The notes beneath the pieces are model-generated. The model saw nothing but the letters and a program-made list of their open reading frames with translations, was not told the origin of the DNA and searched no databases. Position numbers and translations under genes: made by a program. DNA of 64,000 nucleotides from Mitsuokella multacida DSM 20544 (GTDB lineage: Bacteria; Bacillota; Negativicutes; Selenomonadales; Selenomonadaceae): assembly GCF_000155955.1 (NCBI RefSeq), contig NZ_GG697141.2, positions 248,001 through 312,000 on the forward strand, given 5' to 3'. The first letter of the stretch is position 1, and every line of letters starts with the position of its first letter. Of the stretch, positions 14,461 to 27,153 are shown piece by piece.

Positions 14461-16046
14461 GAGGCTCAAACTTCGCAGTTGCCAAACCGCTGATTTATCT
14501 TTAGCGGCAGCCTGCGAAATAAAAATAGCATAAGCTCGTTCCGTTTTGTATAATGAAAGTAACCAAAATCCACAACACAAACGGAGGGCTTATGCTATGA
14601 ATATTGTACCACATCACCATCACTCCTGTGAAGCAACTTCTTCCAAGATTCAGCAATTCTTTGCTGAGTTCCATGTCAGCCGGATCCTGCGGAGCTGCAA
14701 TGCCTACAAGCTGCGCGGCTTTGCGGTCATGGCCATCTTCCTCGTCGCGTTCGAGGCGGTGTTCCAGCGGCGCTCCTTCTACCAGCGGAAGAAGGATGCG
14801 CCGGATTCCATTCCGTTCGAGCGGAACACGTTCTACCGCTTCCTGAACTCCTGCGCCATCCATTGGCGCAAGTTCACGTTGCTCTTGGGTACGGCCATCA
14901 TCCAGAAGACCATCGCGCCGCTGACGAGCGAGGCACGCAGGAACGTCCTCATCATCGACGACTCGCTGTTCAGCCGCAACCGCTCCAAGAAAGTAGAGTT
15001 GCTGGCCCGCGTCTACGACCATGTCAGCGGCACGTACGTGAAGGGCTTCCGCATGCTCACGCTCGGCTGGAGCGACGGGAATACCTTCCTGCCGCTCAGC
15101 CACTGCCTGCTGTCCTCGTCGTCGAAGCAGCAGCAACTGCAGGGCGCGTTGGAAGACGTCGACCCGCGCAGCAACGGAGACAAGCAGCGCAAGCTGGCGC
15201 AGTGCAAGGCTCCAGAGGTAGTCCTGACACTGCTGCGTGAAGCGCGCGAGGCGGGTGTCTCTGCCCAGCACGTCCTGTTCGACTCGTGGTTCTGCTCACC
15301 GGCATCGCTCCACCAGATCCACGAGTTCGGCTACGACGTCATCGCGCGTGTCAAGAAAAGCGAGAAGATGCACTTCTGCTTCCAAGGCCGCATGCAGGAC
15401 GTCAAGACCATCTACCTAGGGCAGAAGAAGCGCCGTGGGCGCTCCGCGTACCTGCTTTCCGTAGAGGCAGAGGCCGTCAAGGATGGCAAGCACCTTCCGG
15501 TACGGCTGGTCTACGTCCGCAACAAGAACAAGCGCAGCGACTACCTTGTCCTGGTCTCGACGGACCTGACACTGTCCGAAGAAGAGATCATCCAGACTTA
15601 TGGCAAGCGCTGGAACATCGAGGTCTTCTTCAAGATGTGCAAGTCCTATCTGAAGCTGGGCAAAGAAACGAGATCTATCTCCTACGATGCCCTGACCGCT
15701 CACACAGCCATTGTCTTCGCGCGCTACGTGATGCTTGCGCTGGAACAACGGCGTAACACGGATGAGCGGAGCCTTGGCGAGCTCTTTTACCTGACGATAG
15801 ATGAACTGGAAGACCTGCACTATCTGGACGCTCTGGCTTCATTGCTGAGCCTGCTGATGGACTGCGCTAAGGAAGCAGAGATTCTTGACGAAGAGTAGAT
15901 TAACCGGCTGCTCAATCTGTTCGTGGCAAAACTGCCCAATCTATGGGGAAAGTGCCTGAAACAGTGTGCATGATATGACGATGATGCATGCCTGAAAACC
16001 GGATGGAGCCTTATCTCATAAGGGTTTCAGGTGTGCGAAGTTTGAG
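14461..16046 (+). mobile_element. IS4-family insertion sequence
   Basis: The 13-base sequence CTCAAACTTCGCA (14465-14477) recurs inverted at the other end (TGCGAAGTTTGAG, 16034-16046). ATAATAA occurs directly outside both ends (14454-14460 and 16047-16053) and is a candidate 7-bp target duplication if the left end begins at 14461; the left end then carries four extra bases (GAGG) before the inverted repeat. Its interior is G+C-rich, unlike the A+T-rich surroundings. One transposase gene. 16047-16183, between this element and the IS30 copy, holds no gene. Confidence 0.8.
14597..15898 (+). CDS. IS4-family DDE transposase
   Basis: 433 aa from the ATG at 14597 with GGAGGG 8 bases upstream. The DDE core can be followed: first Asp in LIIDDSLFSRNRSKK, second Asp in VLFDSWFCSP, and the Y-x2-R-x3-E-x6-K type signature in YGKRWNIEVFFKMCKSYLK. 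The protein is uninterrupted and the terminal repeats are present, so the element may be active. A TATAAT at 14549-14554 inside the element could be its -10 box. Confidence 0.9.
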   Translation: MNIVPHHHHSCEATSSKIQQFFAEFHVSRILRSCNAYKLRGFAVMAIFLVAFEAVFQRRSFYQRKKDAPDSIPFERNTFYRFLNSCAIHWRKFTLLLGTAIIQKTIAPLTSEARRNVLIIDDSLFSRNRSKKVELLARVYDHVSGTYVKGFRMLTLGWSDGNTFLPLSHCLLSSSSKQQQLQGALEDVDPRSNGDKQRKLAQCKAPEVVLTLLREAREAGVSAQHVLFDSWFCSPASLHQIHEFGYDVIARVKKSEKMHFCFQGRMQDVKTIYLGQKKRRGRSAYLLSVEAEAVKDGKHLPVRLVYVRNKNKRSDYLVLVSTDLTLSEEEIIQTYGKRWNIEVFFKMCKSYLKLGKETRSISYDALTAHTAIVFARYVMLALEQRRNTDERSLGELFYLTIDELEDLHYLDALASLLSLLMDCAKEAEILDEE

Positions 16047-16183
16047 ATAATAACAAAAACACGGAGAATATTCAATCAGATGAGTAGAGTATTCTTGCAT
16101 ATGCGGAGTTATTCTATTGCCTCTGAGCTTTAAAAATGATATAATATCCGAGTGCGGCAGGCCTTGTGTTTTATTGTCTTCAA

Positions 16184-17304
16184 TGGTGAATTGTCAAGCT
16201 AAGTGCAACACCTTTGAGAAATAGACCTCATATGGTGTTTTGTAGCCAAGGCACTTTCTGGGGCGCAGGTTCAGTTCATGGTACTTCCGTTGGATGTAAT
16301 CCTCTGGCGTATCCGTGATGTCCTTGCCCCTCGGGAAGAACTCCCGTAGAAGCCCATTGGTGTTTTCATTGGTCCCGCGCTCCCACGGATGGTGCGGAGC
16401 AGGAAAGTAGAACGTCACACGTTTCAGCTCCTTTCTGAGCTGAGCATGTTTTGAGAATTCCTTTCCTCGATCCGGCATGACCGACAAGTGCGGCTGCCCC
16501 GAGAGTGCCTCACACATCACCTTGTTGACTGCAGCAGCGGTCTTGCTCATGGCTTTTCCGCCAAGCAAGTACCGGCTCTTCCGGTCCACCAACGTGACGA
16601 GGCATGCCTTTTCCTGCTGGCCCACTACGGTATCCGCTTCCCAGTGGCCTCGGACGGAACGGTTCGCCGCGCTGGCAGGACAATCTTCGATGGTGTGCGA
16701 TATGACGAATTTGCCACGACGCTCTTCGCTGCCTTTCTTGTGACGCCGTTTCCCGTGATGCCGTAGCTTCCGAAGTACAAACTTCGCTGAAGCTCCTGGC
16801 GGGTTCAGCAGGCCCGTGTGGATAGCACGGTAGATGGTCGGGACGCTGATGAGCTGGTAGCCATGCTCCAGCTGGATCCGTCCGACAATCTCTTCTGGCG
16901 ACCAGTGGTACTCCAAGATACAGGTCTGGATGTAGGAACGCAGTGGTGCATACTCAAGGCGCTTATGCGGGCGACAGGCTTCTCTGCGCCGCTTGTAGAG
17001 CGCTTGCGCAGTCAATGGGCAGTATGACATAGGCTGGTCCGCAGGGGCCGCATTGCGGCGAAGCTCGCGCGAAATGGTCGACTTGCTCCGGTCCAGCAGA
17101 TGGGCAATCTCTGTGACGGATTTGCCCTCAGCAAGAAAAAAAGAGTATCTTTTCTCGCTCAAATGGTGTAAAATGTGTGTAGTGGCACATAGGCTCTCCT
17201 TTGCTGTAGGTAGTTCTTTTCAAACACCATTATAGCAAAGAAGTCTATGTGTCATTTTAATTTGGTTGTCTAAGAGCTGTTGCACTTAGATTGTAAATCC
17301 ATCA
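16184..17304 (-). mobile_element. IS30-family insertion sequence, copy 1 (transposase frameshifted)
   Basis: Ends were set by comparison with the second copy (25869-26987) and by imperfect terminal inverted repeats of about 26 bases sharing CTAAGTGCAACA. The two copies share their termini but differ at many single positions, so they are related insertions and not a fresh duplication. The right end lies about 20 bases from the start of the HTH gene. Confidence 0.85.
16194..17190 (-). pseudogene. IS30-family transposase, frameshifted near the N-terminus
   Basis: Start at ATG 17190 (MCHYTHFTPFEREKILFF), as in the intact copy. In this copy the run of T on the coding strand is 7 long, against 6 in copy 2 (A-run at about 17136-17142 on the plus strand). 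This shifts the frame and gives a stop after 20 codons. The remaining 320 codons, from the RSKSTISREL helix-turn-helix to the DDE catalytic domain (HWEADTVVG, LVDRKSRY, PHHPWERGTNENTNG), are open in the +1 frame. Either a dead gene, a sequencing error in a homopolymer, or a gene needing slippage on T7. Confidence 0.8.
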
Positions 17305-17323
17305 TCAAAAAGAGGTGGACACC

Positions 17324-17554
17324 GTGGAAGTCAGCTATAAAAAGCTTTGGAAATTGTTGATAGACAAGGATATGAAAAAGAAAGACTTACAGGCAGAAGC
17401 CGGAATCAGCTGGTCTTCTGTGACCAAGCTGTCGAAGGGAGAGACTGTCAGTATGGAAGTCTTAATAAAGGTCTGTAAGGCTCTTAATTGTGACATCGGG
17501 GATATTATGGAACTAATACCGACAGCAGAAGATGCAGGAGAAGTAAAGGAGTAA
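17324..17554 (+). CDS. small Cro/CI-type HTH regulator (YozG-like)
   Basis: 76 aa. Starts at the GTG at 17324, which has AGAGGTGG 5 bases upstream and yields the family-typical MEVSYKKLWKLLIDKDM; a GTG at 17315 is a less likely alternative. A single helix-turn-helix of about 60 residues (KDLQAEAGISWSSVTKLSKG, then EVLIKVCKALNCDIGDIMEL) with an acidic tail. First gene of the unit leading to the TcmP-like, radical SAM, mod and res genes (5 bases to the next), so probably the local repressor or switch. Its promoter must lie within about 20 bases or inside the IS30 end directly upstream. Confidence 0.85.
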   Translation: MEVSYKKLWKLLIDKDMKKKDLQAEAGISWSSVTKLSKGETVSMEVLIKVCKALNCDIGDIMELIPTAEDAGEVKE

Positions 17555-17559
17555 ATTAC

Positions 17560-18699
17560 ATGCCGGTTAAAAAGAGCCAGATTATTACAGAAGCCAAGCC
17601 TCATACGATAAAAAAATTTGAGCTAATAGAGATGTATATCAAAGCGTGGGCGCAGAAACTCATGCTTAATAGGCAATGCAATGGCCTTATCTTTATAGAC
17701 TGTATGTGCAACTCCGGAGTCTATAAAGATCAAAGCGGGAATATTATTTATGGAACACCAATAAGGGTGGCAAATGCCTTACTGGATGTGGCAAGGACAT
17801 ACACTGATAAACAGGTCTTCATTTATCTTAATGATTTAAATTCTGCCCGAGTTGAAGAATTGAAGAAGCATCTGCCAGATGAAGGGCAAAATTTCAAGAT
17901 TGTGACTTCCAATGAAGATGCTAAGGAACTTCTTGAAAATATAGGACCACAGTTGAATGATTCAAGCCACTACCATTATTTCTTGCTCTATGATCCTTAT
18001 GATGCGTCGATAGAATGGCGCGCCTTGCTGCCATTCTTCAGACACTGGGGTGAGGTAATGATTAACCATGCCTTGCTTGATCCGATTCGTGCTATTGGCA
18101 GTGCCAAGAGCAGTACGGCAAAAGAAAAATATGAGCATACATATTTGGAAGACTTCGAAAAACTGCTGCCGTACGGGAGTAATAAAAACGCCTATGAGAA
18201 AAGAGTAGAAGAAATCATAGATTATATGAAAGGTAATCGAAGATATTTTGTAGCATCGTTCCCTTTCTATAACCAAAAGAATTCTCTCATGTATGATCTC
18301 ATTCATTGCACAAGCAATATTGAAGGATTCAAGCTTTATAAAAGTTGTGCATGGAAGGTCTTTGGAGGCCAGTCCTCGACAAAGGGATCGAACGATGGGT
18401 ACGTTCAAATGGAACTGGATTTCTCTAGTAATGGATTTGGCGTAACGTTTCCTACGGATGATTCCTGTTACGGAATTCATGATATAGCAAAATATCTTCA
18501 GAAATCTTTTTCAGGAGAAAATAGCGTTCCTTTAGAAGAAATTTGGAGCGTATTAGATTATCATCCTATTTTCCCAACAGATGGGTTTCGTAAGGCAATC
18601 AAAAACGATTTAAAAAAATATTATGATGCCCGCATCGGAACAATCGTTGATCCAAGTTCCGGGAAAAAACAGCAGATAATATCGTTTAGGAATACGTAA
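17560..18699 (+). CDS. TcmP-like protein (three-Cys-motif partner), methyltransferase-like fold
   Basis: 379 aa. The opening (KPHTIKKFELIEMYIKAW) followed by a Rossmann-like glycine region FIDCMCNSGVY (45-55) fits the TcmP family, named because it is encoded beside radical-SAM-like three-Cys proteins; that partner is the next gene here. A second motif LLYDPYD (142-148) sits where DNA/RNA methyltransferases carry DPPY, so a class I methyltransferase-like fold is inferred. Motif I lacks the usual G-x-G, so catalysis is uncertain. About 32 bases to the next gene. The reaction is not known. Confidence 0.75.
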   Translation: MPVKKSQIITEAKPHTIKKFELIEMYIKAWAQKLMLNRQCNGLIFIDCMCNSGVYKDQSGNIIYGTPIRVANALLDVARTYTDKQVFIYLNDLNSARVEELKKHLPDEGQNFKIVTSNEDAKELLENIGPQLNDSSHYHYFLLYDPYDASIEWRALLPFFRHWGEVMINHALLDPIRAIGSAKSSTAKEKYEHTYLEDFEKLLPYGSNKNAYEKRVEEIIDYMKGNRRYFVASFPFYNQKNSLMYDLIHCTSNIEGFKLYKSCAWKVFGGQSSTKGSNDGYVQMELDFSSNGFGVTFPTDDSCYGIHDIAKYLQKSFSGENSVPLEEIWSVLDYHPIFPTDGFRKAIKNDLKKYYDARIGTIVDPSSGKKQQIISFRNT

Positions 18700-18731
18700 A
18701 GAACTAATAGACAAGTGAGGTTAAGACCATT

Positions 18732-19496
18732 TTGAAGACTATAAAAAGAAAATCCATGCTATATCAAACAGGCGTGGAATATGGAGATTACACCATGAAT
18801 CATGTGCAGGGCTGCACACATGGGTGTAAGTACCCTTGCTATGCCTATCTGATGAAGAAAAGGTTTGGACAGATTAAAAGTTATGAAGAATGGTTGCAAC
18901 CGAAACTGGTATCAAATACACTGGAGTTGTTGGATAAAGAAATTCCGCGACTTAAAGATAAAATCCAGTTTGTACAGCTTTGCTTCACGACTGATCCATT
19001 TATGTACGGATATGACGAAGTGAAAGAAATGAGCATCGCAGCGATCAAAAAGCTGAATGAGGCCGGTATTAAATGTACAACATTAACAAAGGGAATTTTG
19101 CCACCAGAACTTTCAGATCTGTCAAAGGAAAATGAGTATGGCATTACTCTGATTTCTTTAGATGAGAAATATAGAAAACACGTGGAACCGGGAGCTGCTC
19201 CATATGCAGAGCGGCTTGCTTCGCTCAAAGCACTGCACGAAGCCGGATGTAAGACTTGGGTAAGCATAGAACCCTACCCGACACCAAATATGATTGATCA
19301 AGATCTGAACGAGATTCTTGAAGCAGTTAGCTTTACAGACCGGATTATTTTCGGCCGGACGAATTACAGCAAATTTGCTAATGCTTTTGAAAACCATCGT
19401 CACTTCTACAATGAATGCGCAAAGATGGTGATCGCCTTTTGTGAAGACAAAGGAATCGCCTACCATATAAAGAGTAAAACGATAACAGAAGAATGA
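18732..19496 (+). CDS. SPL-family radical SAM protein, partner of the TcmP-like gene
   Basis: 254 aa from a TTG at 18732, about 11 bases after GTGAGG; the nearest ATG (18756) would remove conserved residues. The N-terminus GVEYGDYTMNHVQGC resembles spore-photoproduct-lyase-like radical SAM proteins. The cluster cysteines are C28, C32 and C36 (CTHGCKYPC), a C-x3-C-x3-C spacing rather than the standard C-x3-C-x2-C. Later segments (LCFTTDPF, TTLTKG, GITLIS, VSIEPYPTPN) follow the partial TIM-barrel strand pattern. No separate C-terminal substrate domain. Expected to cleave SAM reductively and act on a nucleic acid or a partner; the substrate is unknown. Followed 11 bases later by mod. Confidence 0.8.
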   Translation: MKTIKRKSMLYQTGVEYGDYTMNHVQGCTHGCKYPCYAYLMKKRFGQIKSYEEWLQPKLVSNTLELLDKEIPRLKDKIQFVQLCFTTDPFMYGYDEVKEMSIAAIKKLNEAGIKCTTLTKGILPPELSDLSKENEYGITLISLDEKYRKHVEPGAAPYAERLASLKALHEAGCKTWVSIEPYPTPNMIDQDLNEILEAVSFTDRIIFGRTNYSKFANAFENHRHFYNECAKMVIAFCEDKGIAYHIKSKTITEE

Positions 19497-19507
19497 GGTG
19501 AAGAACT

Positions 19508-21622
19508 GTGGCGCTACTACAGGATTTAATTAAACAGATCGATGATCCGGATCTCCGCGATAGAATCCTTCGCGAAGTGGACAAAATGAGTAAGCAGAAG
19601 AAGTTCGGCCTTGTATTTGAGGAACACCTTCCTGAATGTACTCCCCTCTACGACGTCAAAATCAAGAAAGGATCAAAGGTGTCACTCAAGGCTGGAAAGG
19701 TCGACGACATTTATATCGTCCGGTCCATTGACGGAGAGACAGCAACCTGTGAGCATAGGCAGGATCATAATATAGAGGAGTTTAAGATGGATGATCTTGT
19801 AGCTGTGGCGGAATTCGGAGAGCCAATTTATCCATATCTCAAGCCAGTTGATTCTGTTTGCAATGCGCCGGATTCTGATCTTTGGCACACGCTTATCGAA
19901 GCGGATAATTATCATGCGCTTCAGCTTCTGGAATATCTCTATGCCGAGAAAGTCGACTGCATTTACATAGACCCACCCTACAATACCGGCGCGCGGGACT
20001 GGAAATACAACAATGATTATGTCGACAGCTCAGATCAGTACCGTCACAGCAAATGGTTGTCATTTATGGAAAAGCGGCTGAAACTGGCAAAGAAACTTCT
20101 GAATCCGGAGAATTCTGTTCTTATTGTGACGATAGATGAGAAAGAATATGCTCATTGAAGAAATATTCCCCGAAGCTCGGATGCAGATGATAACGAGTAG
20201 AATTAATAAAAAAGCTTCAACCCGAGTCGGGCAATTTGCAAGATGCGACGAGTACATATATTTGCTTCAATTTGGAAGCATGAATATTTGCAAACTATCA
20301 TACTCTATGTTGGACGTTACAGATAATAGCAACCCAGATGCAAAGATACAAAAAACCGATACAATTTGGAACAGCATGTTGAGGCGAGGCTCTTCTGGCT
20401 CATCACGACAAGAATCACCAAAACTTTTTACCCGGTTTGGGTAGATGAAAATAAGCGGAAAATAGAATTTGTAGGAGATTCATTGCCACTTACACAAAAC
20501 CGACATGAGGTAGAAAAGAAGCTACCCCAAATAGGCCTTAGAGCAGTTTGGCCTATTAGAACTGATAATAGTGAAGGAAGATGGCAATTAGGAAGTGAAA
20601 CTTTAAAAAGATATGTGACAGAAGGGATTGCCAAACTTGGAGCATATAACAAAAAAAGAGATCAATGGGCAATTGTGTTTTTAAAGAAAAAGCAAAAAGA
20701 ACAATTAAATGACGGAATTCTTGTTTCTCGAGGGCGAGATACAGATGGATCTTTAATCTTGGAGTGGAACGATGATGAAGAGATAGACAAAGAGCCTAAG
20801 TCTATGTGGGTTCGGGATTGTCACGATGCAAGCACATATGGGACAAATCTGTTGTCAAAATTTCTGCCAAAGAGAAATTTTCCTTTTCCGAAATCACTTT
20901 ATGCTGTAGAGGATGTCTTGAAGTTTTATGTTGGCGAGAACAAAGATGCCTTGATTGTTGATTTCTTCTCCGGCTCCGGAACAACTCTCCATGCAGTCAA
21001 CCTTCTTAATGCAGAAGACGGCGGTCATCGTCGTTGCATCATGGTTACGAACAACGAGGTCTCAGAGTCTGAAGCGAAAGTCCTGACAAAGCAAGGATAC
21101 ATACCTGGCGACGGAGAATGGGAAAAGCTCGGCATCGCACGTTACGTCACATGGCCGCGCACCGTCTGCAGCATTGAAGGCCATGATGCGAATGGTAAGC
21201 CACTAAAAGGTAACTATATCGGAAGTGACATCCCAATGGCGGATGGTTTCAAGGCAAACGCAGCATATTTTAAATTGGGATTTCTCGATAAGAACGCTGT
21301 TGCGCTCGGCAGACAATTTAAGGAGCTCCTACCCGTCTTGTGGATGAAGGCAAACTGCATCGGCCCTTGCCCAAACCTGGAGAGTGATGAACTGCCCAAG
21401 ATGCTCGTGCTTTCGGAGAACAAGTTCGCTGTTTTGATCGATGAGACCTATTACTCGGAGTTTGATGCCAAGCTGACAGAGCATCCGGAAATACAGACGA
21501 TTTACATCATCACGGATTCGGAATCTGCATACCGTGAAATGATACGCTCTTATGAGGGCAAAGATTGCTACCAGCTTTACCGGGATTATCTGGATAATTT
21601 CCGCATCAACACAGGGAGGTAA
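19508..21622 (+). pseudogene. type III restriction-modification methyltransferase (Mod), broken by two frameshifts
   Basis: GTG start after GAGGTGAAG. Segment 1 (19508-20158) has the N-terminal domain and DPPYNTG (155-161) and stops after DEKEYAH. Segment 2 continues the homology in the +1 frame (about 20145-20429: LIEEIFPEARMQM, RRGSSGSSRQESPKLF). Segment 3 (about 20430-21622) carries YPVWVDENKRK and the SAM-binding DFFSGSGTT near 20960. The first break fits loss of about 14 bases between two copies of TATGCTCATT; the second fits loss of one T from the run at 20425-20429. Together the segments would make an N6-adenine methyltransferase of about 700 aa. As read, no full-length product is made. 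Confidence 0.8.
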
Positions 21623-21624
21623 CT

Positions 21625-24513
21625 ATGAAGGTAGAACTTTTCCCATTTCAGCGAAGAGCAGTGGATGCTCTTCGCTTGAATACAGCCGAGGCAATGGGCG
21701 GCTATCATAGAACGCATACACCACAGGTTGTCTCCTTTACTGCTCCTACAGGTGCTGGAAAGACGATCATTATGGCATCCCTGATCGAGGACATTTATTT
21801 CGGAGACAGCCAATTTGCTGAGCAGCAGAATGCAGTATTTGTATGGCTGTCAGATTCTCCTCAGTTGAACGAGCAATCGAAACTGAAGATAGATGCAAAG
21901 GCCGACAAGATTCGTCTCGGACAGTGTGTAACTGTTTCGGAGGAATCATTTGACCGGGAAACATTCGAGGATGGACATATCTATTTTTTGAATACCCAGA
22001 AGCTGTCGGTTTCTTCGAATCTTACAAAGCATGGAGACGGAAGAACCTATACAATCTGGGAGACCATCTCTAACACGGTAAGAGAAAAGAGCAATCGGCT
22101 CTATTTCATCATTGATGAAGCCCATCGTGGCATGCAGGGACGTGAAGCAAGCCGTGCGACAACGATCATGCAGAAATTCATCAAGGGAAGTGATTCCGAT
22201 CATATCCCACCGATGCCTGTTGTTATTGGGATGTCCGCAACGACGCAGCGGTTTAATAAGTTGGTAGAAAACACGTCCTCAACAATTCATAAAGTTGTGG
22301 TTACAGCAGATGAAGTGCGGGCCTCCGGATTACTGAAGGATCGGATCATTATCACATATCCGGAAGAAGACGCTATCAATAATGATATGGCGATTCTTCA
22401 GGCCGCTGCAGATGACTGGAAGGAAAAATGGGGACATTGGACGCAGTATTGTCAGGAACAGCATTATGCCTATGTCAATCCTGTGTTTATTATCCAAGTG
22501 TTGAATGGATCTGGGAAAAAGTTGTCAGACACGAATCTTGATGATTGCCTCAGCAAGATCGAGGAAAGAGTCGGGATACACTTTGAACCGGGACAAGTCG
22601 TTCATACTTTCGGACAGACACAGTCATCCATTACAGTTAATGGCTTGGAAGTCCGCTATGTGGAGCCATCACGCATCGCCGACGACAAGAATATACGAGT
22701 AGTTTTCTTTAAGGAAAACCTATCTACAGGCTGGGATTGCCCGAGAGCTGAAACCATGATGTCATTCCGGCATGCCAGCGATGCAACTTATATTGCACAG
22801 CTCCTCGGACGTATGGTGCGGACACCAATGCAGATGCATATTCAGGTCGATGATGTTTTAAACAATGTGCATCTGTTTTTGCCGTACTTTAATGAAAGCA
22901 CGGTAAAAGATGTGGTAGATGAGCTTCAGAACTCAGAAGGCGGAGAAATCCCGACAGATATTTATGGGGAATCTACCTCTGGACGAAAGTTTGAAACTTG
23001 GACCGTAAAGAAGCCATGCAAGAAAAAGGATAACGAAGATCCGAACCAGATGTCTTTTGAGGATTTTTTAAATCAAGATGGGACAAATTTGACGGATAGT
23101 TCGCATAATGAGGCCTCGCAGGAGCCACAGAATCTAACGACATATGCCGTTGATAATGAGAACGGGGATTCTGCCCAGCAGCCAATTGAGAACCATGAGA
23201 CGTCGAATCATTCATCTGAGAATCCAGAACATCGTGTCGAGACTCCGACAGATAGTGTCGCTTCGGAAGTACCTTCAAATGAAGAGCAAAAGGCAACCGC
23301 GAATCAAGAAGCTGAGCAAGGTGACCAGCAAGAAGAAAGCGAAGACTTGTTTGACCGCGAGGCGGTCATGAAATTCATCAATGATTCTGGTCTGTTGACT
23401 TTCGATGTAAGAACCTATCAGATTAGCAATTATCTGAAGTCCCTGTACAAACTTGCTCATCTTTTGACCATGTCGAATCTGAGACGTGAAGCAATACGAG
23501 AGGTGCAGGATGAAATTGCCGAGATGATTCACAATCATGCCTTGGCTCTTAAAGCAGGCGGTTCTTATGATGATCTTGTGCTTCAGGTCAAGCAGTTTAA
23601 GTTGGCGACACAGATATTCGATGCTTTCGGAGAAAGTGTTGACAACTATTCGGTGCATGACATGTTCACTACAACGGATACGGATTTGGAGCGCCAGTTC
23701 CGCGCGGCAGAGGCCAAGTTAGGAAATGAAGGTGTTGGCCTGTCTTATGCAAATAAGTACGGTGATCTGGGTGATCCTGCTGGATATGAGATAGAGGTCA
23801 TTCTCTTTGTTGCTGATGATGAGTGCATGAATCAGTTACACAATTATGCACAAGATAAATTTCATAGTTGGAATGATGAATATCGCAGATATATTGCGAG
23901 AATCGACTCAGAAAAAATTCGAAAACAGTACGATAGTATTGTTTCTGATGGCGACAAAGTCAGCAAGCACAATTTCAGGCTTCCAGAGACCATTCAGGTT
24001 CCACACGATATAGGTGGGAAGCCTTACCGGGATCATTTGTTTGTTAATGGCGATACTGGCGTGGCATCTTTGAAGCTCAATAGTTGGGAATCCGGTGTTA
24101 TTGAAGAGGAAGAAAAGAGACATGATTTTGTATGCTGGATTCGAAATCCTTCACGTGGCTCTTGGGCCCTTTGCATCCCTTATGATGAGGATGGCGATAC
24201 AAAACCCACATATCCAGATTTTATTATCGTACGCAAAGATCCGATATCTGAGTATGTGATTGATATTCTGGAACCGCATAATCCTGATTTTAAAGACAAC
24301 CTTGGAAAGGCTAAAGGTTTCGCAGAATATGCACGATTGAATCCGGGACTTGGAAGAATTCAGCTGATTCGCATGAGCAAAGATGCAGCTGGACACAATA
24401 AGTTCAAGAGACTGGATATGGCAAAAAGTGCTATTCGGGATAAAGTGCTGAAGGCTATGTCAATTGAAGAACTTGATCATCTGTTTGAAACAGATGGACA
24501 GTTCGATTTCTGA
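21625..24513 (+). CDS. type III restriction enzyme-like helicase-nuclease (Res)
   Basis: 962 aa, intact. Superfamily 2 helicase motifs: Walker A APTGAGKT (40-47), DEAH (164-167), SAT in GMSATTQ, and motif VI QLLGRMVRTP. The C-terminus has YPDFIIV (about 863) followed by VIDILEPH (about 880), the layout of the PD-(D/E)xK nuclease of Res subunits with a variant last motif (no visible ExK). Residues about 463-573 are a low-complexity Glu/Gln/Asn/Ser-rich insert between helicase and C-terminal parts. Its ribosome site GGGAGG overlaps the mod stop. Type III Res cuts only in complex with Mod, so with mod broken it should be inactive as a restriction enzyme unless it serves another partner. Confidence 0.88.
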   Translation: MKVELFPFQRRAVDALRLNTAEAMGGYHRTHTPQVVSFTAPTGAGKTIIMASLIEDIYFGDSQFAEQQNAVFVWLSDSPQLNEQSKLKIDAKADKIRLGQCVTVSEESFDRETFEDGHIYFLNTQKLSVSSNLTKHGDGRTYTIWETISNTVREKSNRLYFIIDEAHRGMQGREASRATTIMQKFIKGSDSDHIPPMPVVIGMSATTQRFNKLVENTSSTIHKVVVTADEVRASGLLKDRIIITYPEEDAINNDMAILQAAADDWKEKWGHWTQYCQEQHYAYVNPVFIIQVLNGSGKKLSDTNLDDCLSKIEERVGIHFEPGQVVHTFGQTQSSITVNGLEVRYVEPSRIADDKNIRVVFFKENLSTGWDCPRAETMMSFRHASDATYIAQLLGRMVRTPMQMHIQVDDVLNNVHLFLPYFNESTVKDVVDELQNSEGGEIPTDIYGESTSGRKFETWTVKKPCKKKDNEDPNQMSFEDFLNQDGTNLTDSSHNEASQEPQNLTTYAVDNENGDSAQQPIENHETSNHSSENPEHRVETPTDSVASEVPSNEEQKATANQEAEQGDQQEESEDLFDREAVMKFINDSGLLTFDVRTYQISNYLKSLYKLAHLLTMSNLRREAIREVQDEIAEMIHNHALALKAGGSYDDLVLQVKQFKLATQIFDAFGESVDNYSVHDMFTTTDTDLERQFRAAEAKLGNEGVGLSYANKYGDLGDPAGYEIEVILFVADDECMNQLHNYAQDKFHSWNDEYRRYIARIDSEKIRKQYDSIVSDGDKVSKHNFRLPETIQVPHDIGGKPYRDHLFVNGDTGVASLKLNSWESGVIEEEEKRHDFVCWIRNPSRGSWALCIPYDEDGDTKPTYPDFIIVRKDPISEYVIDILEPHNPDFKDNLGKAKGFAEYARLNPGLGRIQLIRMSKDAAGHNKFKRLDMAKSAIRDKVLKAMSIEELDHLFETDGQFDF

Positions 24514-24714: not shown

Positions 24715-24732
24715 AATGAGGTGATGAATCAC

Positions 24733-25734
24733 ATGAGTGAATATAAACCGCCATTTCATATGACGGACAGGATTACAAATCTGGTTGCTGCTATCAGTGA
24801 ACAGATTGGCAGGATTAAGGTGCTCTCACATGGCATTTTGAATCCGCACCTTAGAAAAGAAAACAGAATAAGGACCATTCATTCGTCGCTCGCCATCGAG
24901 CAAAATTCCCTGTCCCTTGAGCAGGTTACGGCAATTCTTGACGGTAAACGAATCCTCGGAAATCCGAATGAAATCCGGGAAGTGAAGAATGCCTACGATA
25001 CCTATGAGATGATGCTTTCTCTTGACCCATATTCAGTGAAAGACTTGCTGAAGGCACATAAGATGATGATGGATGGTTTGATTTCGGAGAATGGGAAATT
25101 TCGCTCTGGCGGGGTAGGCGTATTTGATGGAGATGTAGTCGTACATATGGCTCCTCCGGCGAGATTGGTACCTGGAGAAATTCAGGATTTGTTCGACTGG
25201 TACCGATTCTCGGAGATACACCCATTGATTCGCAGTGCGATTTTCCATTACGAGTTCGAGTTTATTCATCCATTTGCAGACGGGAATGGGCGTATGGGCA
25301 GGATGTGGCATAGTCTGCTTCTGGGGAAATGGAATGAGATATTCTACTGGCTGCCGATCGAGGAACTGATTCGCTCTCGGCAGCAGGAGTACTATGGTGC
25401 GCTCGGTAAATCGGACAGACAATCTGATAGCAGTGCTTTTGTTGAGTTCTTGCTGGGGATCATTCTTGACACGCTGACAGGAACGACAGTCGTGGGCAAT
25501 GCCGATGAAAAGGCTAAAGAAACGAATCCTTCCGTACAGAAATTGCTTGATGTTCTTGGTAACGAGGAACTGTCAGCTGCTCAGATCATGGAGAGACTGG
25601 GCCTTTCCCATAGGCCGACATTTCGCAAGAATTATCTGAATTTGGCATTAGCACTAGGAGCTATAGAAATGACGATTCCCGATAAGCCTCGCAGTCGGAA
25701 TCAGAAGTATAGGAAGAAACAACTTGGTCGCTGA
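24733..25734 (+). CDS. Fic-family protein (predicted AMP transferase), class II
   Basis: 333 aa from the ATG at 24733, nine bases after GAGGTG; ATG 24724 is in frame too. The catalytic Fic loop HPFADGNGRMGR (179-190) is complete, including the His and the phosphate-binding GNGR. An N-terminal autoinhibitory helix is visible as SSLAIEQN (51-58), which keeps the Glu of the S/T-x3-E-G/N motif but has Gln in the G/N place, making it a class II (self-inhibited) Fic. Residues about 265-320 look like a winged helix (SAAQIMERLGLSHRPTFRKNYL). Such proteins usually AMPylate a target protein; the target is unknown. A hairpin (25723-25743) overlaps the stop. Flanked by 120-bp direct repeats. Confidence 0.87.
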   Translation: MSEYKPPFHMTDRITNLVAAISEQIGRIKVLSHGILNPHLRKENRIRTIHSSLAIEQNSLSLEQVTAILDGKRILGNPNEIREVKNAYDTYEMMLSLDPYSVKDLLKAHKMMMDGLISENGKFRSGGVGVFDGDVVVHMAPPARLVPGEIQDLFDWYRFSEIHPLIRSAIFHYEFEFIHPFADGNGRMGRMWHSLLLGKWNEIFYWLPIEELIRSRQQEYYGALGKSDRQSDSSAFVEFLLGIILDTLTGTTVVGNADEKAKETNPSVQKLLDVLGNEELSAAQIMERLGLSHRPTFRKNYLNLALALGAIEMTIPDKPRSRNQKYRKKQLGR

Positions 25735-25868: not shown

Positions 25869-26987
25869 TGGTGAATTGTCAAGCTAAGTGCAACACCTTT
25901 GAGAAATAGACCTCATATGGTGTTTTGTAGCCAAGGCACTTCCTAGGGCGCAGGTTCAGTTCATGGTACTTCCGTTGGATGTAATCCTCTGGTATGTCCG
26001 TGATGTCCTTGCCCTTCGGGAAGAACTCTCGCAGAAGCCCATTGGTATTCTCGTTGGTCCTGCGCTCCCACGGATGGTGCGGAGCAGGAAAATAGAACGT
26101 CACACGTTTCAGCTCCTTTCTGAGCTGAACATGTTTTGAGAATTCCTTCCCTCGATCCGGCGTGACCGACAAGTGCGGCTGCCCCGAGAGCGCCTCACAC
26201 ATCACCTTGTTGACTGCAACAGCGGTCTTGCTCATGGCCTTTCCACTAAGCAAGTACCGGCTCTTCCGGTCCACCAACGTGACGAGGCATGCCTTTCCTT
26301 GCTTGCCTACTACGGTATCCGCTTCCCAGTGGCCTCGGACGGAACGGTTCGCCGCGCTGGCAGGACGATTTTCGATGGGGTGCGATATGACGAACTTGCC
26401 ACGACGTTCTTCGCTGCCTTTCTTGTGACGCCGTTTCCCGTGATGCCGTAGCTTCCGAAGTACAAACTTCGCTGAAGCCCCTGGCGGGTTCAGCAGGCCA
26501 GAGTGAATAGCACGGTAGATGGTTGGAACGCTGACAAGCCGACAGCTATGCTCCAGTTGGATTCGTCCAACAATCTCTTCTGGCGACCAGTGGTACTTCA
26601 GGATGCAGATCTGGATGTAGGAGTGCAGGGGGGCATTCTCAAGGCGCTTATGCGGACGACAGGCTTCCCTGCGCCGCTTGTAAAGCGCTTGCGCAGTCAA
26701 CGGGCAGTACGACATAGGCTGGCCCACAGGAGCCGCATTGCGGCGAAGCTCACGAGAAATGGTCGACTTGCTCCGGTTCAGCAGATAGGCAATCTCCGTG
26801 ATGGATTTGCCCTGAGCAAGAAAAAAGAGTATCTTTTCTCGCTCAGGTGGTGTAAGATGTGTGTAGTGGCACATAGGCTCTCCTTTGCTGTAGGTAGTTC
26901 TGTTCAAACACCATTATAACAGAGAGGTCTATGTGTCATTTTATTTGGTTGTCTAGGAGCTGTTGCACTTAGATTGTAAATCCATCA
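25869..26987 (-). mobile_element. IS30-family insertion sequence, copy 2 (intact)
   Basis: Same ends as copy 1 (TGGTGAATTGTCAAGC at the left, AATCCATCA at the right) with imperfect inverted repeats around CTAAGTGCAACA. With copy 1 it brackets the HTH-to-Fic module in the same orientation. The flanks show no shared target duplication. Confidence 0.9.
25879..26874 (-). CDS. IS30-family transposase
   Basis: 331 aa from the ATG at 26874, preceded by AAAGGAGA six bases upstream. N-terminal helix-turn-helix (EREKILFFLAQGKSITEIA, RSKSTISREL), then the IS30 DDE domain: Asp in GHWEADTVVG, Asp in VTPDRGKEF, Glu in ERRTNENTNG. Note ERRTNENT here against ERGTNENT in copy 1; the usual family pattern is ERGTNENTN, so the Gly-to-Arg change beside the catalytic Glu might weaken activity. 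Otherwise complete, whereas copy 1 is frameshifted. Confidence 0.92.
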   Translation of the reverse strand: MCHYTHLTPPEREKILFFLAQGKSITEIAYLLNRSKSTISRELRRNAAPVGQPMSYCPLTAQALYKRRREACRPHKRLENAPLHSYIQICILKYHWSPEEIVGRIQLEHSCRLVSVPTIYRAIHSGLLNPPGASAKFVLRKLRHHGKRRHKKGSEERRGKFVISHPIENRPASAANRSVRGHWEADTVVGKQGKACLVTLVDRKSRYLLSGKAMSKTAVAVNKVMCEALSGQPHLSVTPDRGKEFSKHVQLRKELKRVTFYFPAPHHPWERRTNENTNGLLREFFPKGKDITDIPEDYIQRKYHELNLRPRKCLGYKTPYEVYFSKVLHLA

Positions 26988-27153
26988 TCGAAAAGAACGT
27001 TTAAAGCCTATAGGGAATATCCATGGGGCAGCTACAGAAGGGAAAATAGGAGAGCGGTCTTGGGGACAGCAAGCTGGAGCTTGTAAGTATGAGATCTCTT
27101 TTCAATTAGGGTTTCCAGATCCTAGACTCTACCCAGATGAATGGACAGAGTAA
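26988..27153 (+). pseudogene. 3' remnant of an unidentified gene truncated by IS30
   Basis: From the IS30 end an open frame of about 54 codons runs to TAA at 27151-27153 with protein-like composition (NIHGAATEGKIGERSWGQQ, then YEISFQLGFPDPRLYPDEW). It has no start of its own with a ribosome site and abuts the insertion sequence, so it looks like the tail of a gene whose front was removed. Not recognised. Confidence 0.4.

Follow-up and report, generated by a model that had tools for sequence, protein, structure and literature searches.

Most of the known modules that accompany restriction systems are nucleases or toxins. That restriction loci carry extra conflict modules, and that such a module is replaceable, is a known theme (PMC3506569, PMC12707154); both the RM guardians, such as PrrC with EcoPrrI and PARIS (PMC12707154), and immunity-suicide coupling (PMC3506569) place a separate, replaceable module at a restriction locus. 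Among the phage-defence candidates in PADLOC, PDC-M30 and PDC-M41 combine a TcmP-like A protein with a radical SAM-like B protein; judged by the entry names, neither an HTH regulator nor a restriction partner is included, and we found no defence tests of PDC-M30 or PDC-M41 in the open-licence literature. In S. meliloti, a TcmP gene has been listed with the Hna defence helicase among the NolR-upregulated putative operons (PMC12445080).

Here we analysed a locus in a 64,000-nucleotide stretch of the Mitsuokella multacida DSM 20544 genome (hereafter the window), in which genes for TcmP and a radical SAM protein, the kinds paired in PDC-M30 and PDC-M41, adjoin each other between an HTH regulator and a type III restriction gene pair. 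The three genes HTH-TcmP-rSAM, where rSAM is the radical SAM protein, are called the cassette below. The cassette shows the restriction linkage that characterizes the PrrC- and PARIS-like RM guardians, but it carries no nuclease or known toxin domain and consists instead of a radical SAM protein paired with a methyltransferase-fold protein, beside restriction systems of every type. The original prediction called the module a candidate undescribed system. This is only partly right, as PADLOC already has the TcmP-rSAM pair among its candidates. We found no paper describing the cassette or its restriction link in the open-licence literature, to which the search was confined and which gives weak evidence of novelty.

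Five tightly spaced, co-directional genes had been predicted at 17324-24513, and the open reading frames and the gaps of 5, 32, 11 and 2 bases between them match. All on the plus strand, they encode the HTH regulator as cassette gene 1 (17324-17554; HTH_26, 7.4e-23), TcmP (17560-18699; TIGR04474, 1.8e-30; PDC-M30A, 8.7e-17), rSAM (18732-19496; PF04055 (Radical_SAM), 1.5e-16), a broken type III Mod (19508-21622; type III methyltransferase, 1e-55 for the N part and 2e-80 for the C part) and an open type III Res (21625-24513; ResIII PF04851, 2.5e-15). TcmP additionally matches PDC-M41A (2.7e-12), and rSAM matches the PADLOC B models weakly (1.4e-5 and 4.4e-5). As predicted, the unit is A+T-richer than its surroundings, its G+C content being 39-48%, whereas most of the window has 52-67%, and it lies between two IS30 copies, both on the minus strand and 93% identical to each other (left, 16184-17313; right, 25869-26996). 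With about 10 bases between the end of the left copy and the HTH start codon, displacement of the native promoter is probable. A SoFic-like Fic gene (24721-25734, plus strand; Fic, 9.2e-22; PADLOC SoFic, 8.7e-40) lies between res and the right IS30 copy, inside the same IS30-bounded segment; we regard it as a neighbour of the five-gene unit and at most a possible member. A scan of the unit's region against Rfam gave zero matches.

To leave the neighbours free to vary, we searched with rSAM alone, not with the pair or with Mod, through the GTDB species genomes, viral contigs and 300 genomes from the class to which the window belongs. After removal of identical copies, 101 distinct loci remained, the window included, whose rSAM proteins have the CxxxCxxxC motif and are mostly 60-82% identical. 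The family is sparse, with 8 carriers in a phylum-wide set of 299 genomes, and the cassette is also found on viral contigs. In 97 of the 101 loci the gene immediately upstream of rSAM encodes a TcmP-family protein; of the four others, L063 is cut by a contig edge and in L024 gene calling failed. Type III Mod lies directly downstream of rSAM in 29/101 loci, a share inflated by the query, which was taken from a type III locus and whose nearest relatives (at least 78% identical) are all of type III. By our own estimate, made in the class sample, where Res relatives occur in 16 of 300 genomes, about 3 in 10,000 rSAM loci would by chance have such a neighbour at a distance of up to 6 kb; besides the window, two genomes of this sample (G020 and G007) have rSAM with a Res-relative neighbour. 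The original prediction had proposed counting how often mod and res directly follow TcmP-rSAM, with co-occurrence at the level of chance as the mark of an accidental grouping, and the count lies well above it. Moreover, the gap before Mod is 1-90 bases, or the genes overlap, in nearly all type III loci, and spacing is similar for the other system types. The HTH-TcmP-rSAM-Mod-Res grouping is thus operon-like and not accidental.

The type III pairing is one case of a broader association between the cassette and restriction. Genes of type I, II, III, IV-like or BREX systems adjoin 66 of the 101 loci; by class, we counted 31 type III, 7 type I, 23 type II, 5 other and 35 with none seen, labels that are approximate, as they combine model matches on representatives, clusters and motifs rather than a scan of every protein, and several of the 35 loci without a restriction gene in reach are cut by contig ends. 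The type I partners are found in L066, L101, L123, L027, L021, L106 and L127. HindIII-like enzymes accompany the cassette in L125 and L126, an MvaI/BcnI-like enzyme in L023, MmeI-like enzymes in L056, L065, L104, L025, L029 and L094, a nicking endonuclease with methylases in L074 and other methylases in L071-L073 and L131. The remaining partners are GmrSD-like (L119, L122, L049), McrB-like (L086), a UvrD-nuclease with a methylase (L105) and BREX (L110). ORFs with DNA-methylase motifs are densest in the 2.5 kb nearest the cassette, at 9.7 per 100 kb, and drop to 2.45 at 2.5-5 kb, 0.94 at 5-7.5 kb and 0.52 at 7.5-10 kb, this gradient within the loci serving as the control for their density; counted around the cassette, such ORFs gave 42/101 loci against 1/53. 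In four loci an AIPR/AbiU-like gene directly follows res (L034, at 15843-17591; L041; L044; L120), and a protein combining HEPN_Swt1 with a SNF2 helicase (DrmD-like) takes that place in L062, L084, L098, L109 and L137.

We then compared the DNA of the loci. In one group of close relatives the cassettes are mostly about 65-94% identical between pairs, yet are followed by unrelated systems, including MvaI/BcnI-like, nicking endonuclease with methylases, type I, HindIII-like and GmrSD-like ones. Counted from the rSAM start, pairwise homology between cassettes before different systems stops after about 745-980 bases, the rSAM stop lying at about 752, and in unrelated backbones the left border lies about 1200-1500 bases upstream of rSAM. 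Similar cassettes before unrelated systems, together with homology that ends just after rSAM, indicate that modules have been swapped. Mapped onto the rSAM tree, type III by itself requires at least 10 changes of label (4 of them already forced by the starred branches), and the full set of labels requires 33. TcmP itself is exchanged behind a conserved rSAM: the median pairwise identity is 70% for rSAM against 20% for TcmP, and close rSAM proteins can have TcmP partners that are just 16-21% identical, the figure being 16-20% for the rSAM pairs L072/L105 (76%) and L089/L108 (81%). Most of the nearest type III relatives, and a few other loci, carry a second TcmP-like gene (PDC-M41A, 3.5e-89) between TcmP and rSAM, which the window and L120 lack.

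Exchange is also seen from the restriction side. Mod-Res pairs occur without the cassette in L146-L152, with Res 46-60% identical, so restriction does not need the cassette. In a further Res group of the 835-aa type (L156-L161), most loci have an HTH gene and an ABC-3C pair (CTD11 + DUF2326, domains that were scanned in L157 alone) directly before Mod; the slot before a related Mod-Res is thus filled, as by the cassette, with an HTH gene and two further genes, whose proteins are however unrelated to those of the cassette. The cassette and Mod-Res of L098, from a Spirochaetales bin, are nearly identical to those of the Lachnospiraceae loci L084 and L109, which reflects either recent transfer or bin contamination.

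The cassette therefore recurs in a set gene order with sharp borders, and both its neighbour system and its TcmP are exchanged. Our preferred reading, to which we give an even chance, is that HTH-TcmP-rSAM is a self-contained, mobile companion defence cassette that stands as a second line beside complete restriction or restriction-like systems of any type, in the window beside a type III Mod-Res that is now broken. On this reading, TcmP and rSAM would form a two-part enzyme acting on nucleic acid, with rSAM as the constant radical engine and TcmP as the variable, substrate-holding partner or adaptor. The HTH regulator would keep expression in check; where restriction falls short, the pair would modify DNA or RNA of the phage or the host, without being part of the restriction enzyme itself. 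The association with restriction agrees with the defence or nucleic-acid setting that had been predicted, and the PADLOC candidates PDC-M30 and PDC-M41 and the S. meliloti TcmP gene listed with Hna lend further support. Three observations speak against this reading, namely the 35 loci with no restriction gene in reach, the altered motif I of the window's TcmP described below and the many Mod-Res pairs that do without the cassette.

The first of these could also mean that the cassette is an independent module that merely hitch-hikes in defence islands, functionally unconnected to restriction. PtuA, Abi_C and AbiJ near loci of unresolved class, a restriction gene that is convergent with the cassette in L021, L106 and L131, and carriage on viral contigs would all suit such a module. 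The tight co-directional spacing and the steep decay with distance, however, exceed the loose clustering usual in such islands, and we consider hitch-hiking unlikely.

What the companion cassette might do depends on its two proteins. TcmP scores well above the curated cut-off of its family (TIGR04474, 106.8 bits against 53), and its AlphaFold model (pLDDT 90.3) has RlmJ as the best PDB match in a fold search (7p9i, E 1.2e-5). The model predicts an RlmJ-like methyltransferase fold with a C-terminal helical/strand domain. The invariant residues are K19, Y26, D47, G53, D145, P146, R177 and Y245; across 54 relatives, down to 15% identity, Asp47, Gly53, Asp145 and Pro146 are invariant and position 147 is Tyr or Phe, giving an invariant DPY/F motif that lacks the second proline of DPPY. 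Motif I aligns with that of RlmJ, the 23S rRNA m6A2030 methyltransferase (YLDTHAGAGRY in RlmJ, FIDCMCNSGVY in TcmP), but TcmP differs in its DPY/F motif, its added C-terminal domain, its identity of about 10% and its non-housekeeping locus. In HHalign, motif I was the only part of TcmP aligned with E. coli RlmJ (probability 8.5%), so the link to RlmJ rests on the fold. Furthermore, motif I reads DCMCNSG in the window's TcmP subfamily, unlike the FAGxG form, which makes methyl transfer by this subfamily uncertain; the activity may have been lost. A fold search of viral structures returned only generic methyltransferases, and profiles of TcmP and rSAM found no credible match in a PDB sequence search. 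We also considered whether TcmP serves the partner system as its cognate methylase, a role that is disfavoured because the partners bring their own methylases.

The rSAM protein is full length with a TTG start at 18732, the residue at which its nearest relatives also start. It had been described as an SPL-type radical SAM protein with C-x3-C-x3-C spacing, and it indeed has CxxxCxxxC and, from its AlphaFold model (pLDDT 92.8), spore photoproduct lyase (SPL) as the best PDB match in a fold search (4fhg, E 2.8e-7). All of the 56 relatives compared retain cysteines 28, 32, 36, 84, 115 and 237. With SPL it shares the cluster region, a (T/S)DP stretch and an EP...R(L/I)..A stretch, but SPL has CxxxCxxC and an N-terminal part that rSAM lacks, and rSAM has three further invariant cysteines (C84, C115 and C237) and is mobile. 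In the profile alignment, C84 lies one residue before the position of the hydrogen-donor cysteine of SPL, the residue altered in the C140 mutants among the SPL structures. An SPL-type hydrogen-donor cysteine was accordingly rejected for rSAM, the cysteine being nearby but off by one residue. Lacking a match to the SPL family model and the CxxxCxxC motif, and with this offset, rSAM falls outside the SPL family; the family model itself, PF20903, has no match in the window's own genome.

These likenesses bear on the proposal that TcmP-rSAM is not an effector but a companion that repairs or pre-modifies host nucleic acid and so limits damage. The closest solved fold of rSAM belongs to a DNA repair enzyme, with the cluster region and the TDP stretch aligned and the invariant C84 a single residue from the donor position. 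Identity is nevertheless just 25% over 161 columns, the offset of C84 remains, and the SPL-like group includes many enzymes without a known substrate; together with the diversity of TcmP, which suggests conflict rather than housekeeping repair, this makes a repair role quite improbable.

Attachment to every restriction type would be explained if the cassette stripped or altered protective modifications of phage DNA so that any restriction enzyme could cut, and radical SAM chemistry on bases is plausible; carriage on viral contigs is then left unexplained, and we hold this to be very unlikely. Known type I and II enzymes of the partner kinds recognise their own sites. It can therefore hardly be that, as the original prediction suggested, TcmP and rSAM add a DNA or RNA modification recognised by the adjacent nuclease, even with nucleic-acid-type folds in both proteins and modification-dependent GmrSD- or McrB-like partners in some loci, as similar cassettes precede HindIII-like, MvaI/BcnI-like, type I, type III and BREX systems and adjoin MmeI-like ones, several with a methylase of their own.

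Within the preferred reading of a companion cassette, a bolder version is possible though somewhat doubtful: TcmP-rSAM may be a new kind of nucleic-acid-editing enzyme, in which a constant radical SAM engine uses interchangeable methyltransferase-fold adaptors. Such an enzyme would accompany restriction systems universally as a mobile partner and, during phage infection, would introduce or take away a modification on a base or on RNA. If true, a radical SAM and methyltransferase-fold pair beside all restriction types would represent new chemistry in bacterial immunity, and the widespread, uncharacterised TcmP-radical SAM pairs, some on viral contigs, would gain a testable role. A natural experiment is already at hand in the series of similar cassettes swapped onto different restriction systems.

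In the window itself, the restriction half is probably no longer functional. The predicted type III Mod-Res pair holds for families, order and spacing, as in type III RM systems, but not for mod as one open frame, and type III is just one among several cassette partners. Two frame shifts, at about 20152 and 20421, break mod: compared with an intact relative, it follows frame 1 to about 20155, another frame over about 20151-20420 and frame 1 again from about 20426. Stops lie between the segments, while HTH, TcmP, rSAM and res are all open. The N part retains the DPPY motif, and mod is whole in relatives such as L034 (Faecalicatena), L041 (Blautia) and the viral-contig locus L120, whose gene order is exactly that of the window. 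A phase-variable mod was considered and set aside, since neither frame break shows a simple repeat in the sequence. Type III enzymes require Mod for site recognition, and with mod broken the type III restriction part in the window is probably dead. Res has the helicase motifs TGAGKT and DEAHR and a C-terminal nuclease-like stretch, YPDF...DILEPH (24201-24290), conserved across the family, in which the lysine usual for ExK is missing.

One locus contains an in-frame ORF that joins an RRXRR (IsrB-like) protein to rSAM (L143:8421-10190; G473:C5:234420-236189). We rejected a true fusion, as the same genome encodes the RRXRR part a second time, by itself and 100% identical; a search for HEARO RNA found none, and the ORF is probably a recent transposon insertion reading through.

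Finally, the regulator is a small Cro/CI-type HTH protein with its in-family start at GTG 17324, a longer GTG frame running from 17315, and a homologue 79-90% identical takes the same position in many relatives. In many loci a gene for a protein of roughly 650 aa that weakly matches IrrE/ImmA-type peptidases (cluster c4; for example L034:5647-7587) is divergent from HTH and may act as a regulator of the cassette. The HTH protein also matches the VanU model, below that model's cut-off. In L047, L048 and L050, the cassette is followed by genes for a response regulator, a histidine kinase and a D-Ala-D-Ala ligase, which resemble a cluster of the glycopeptide-resistance type.
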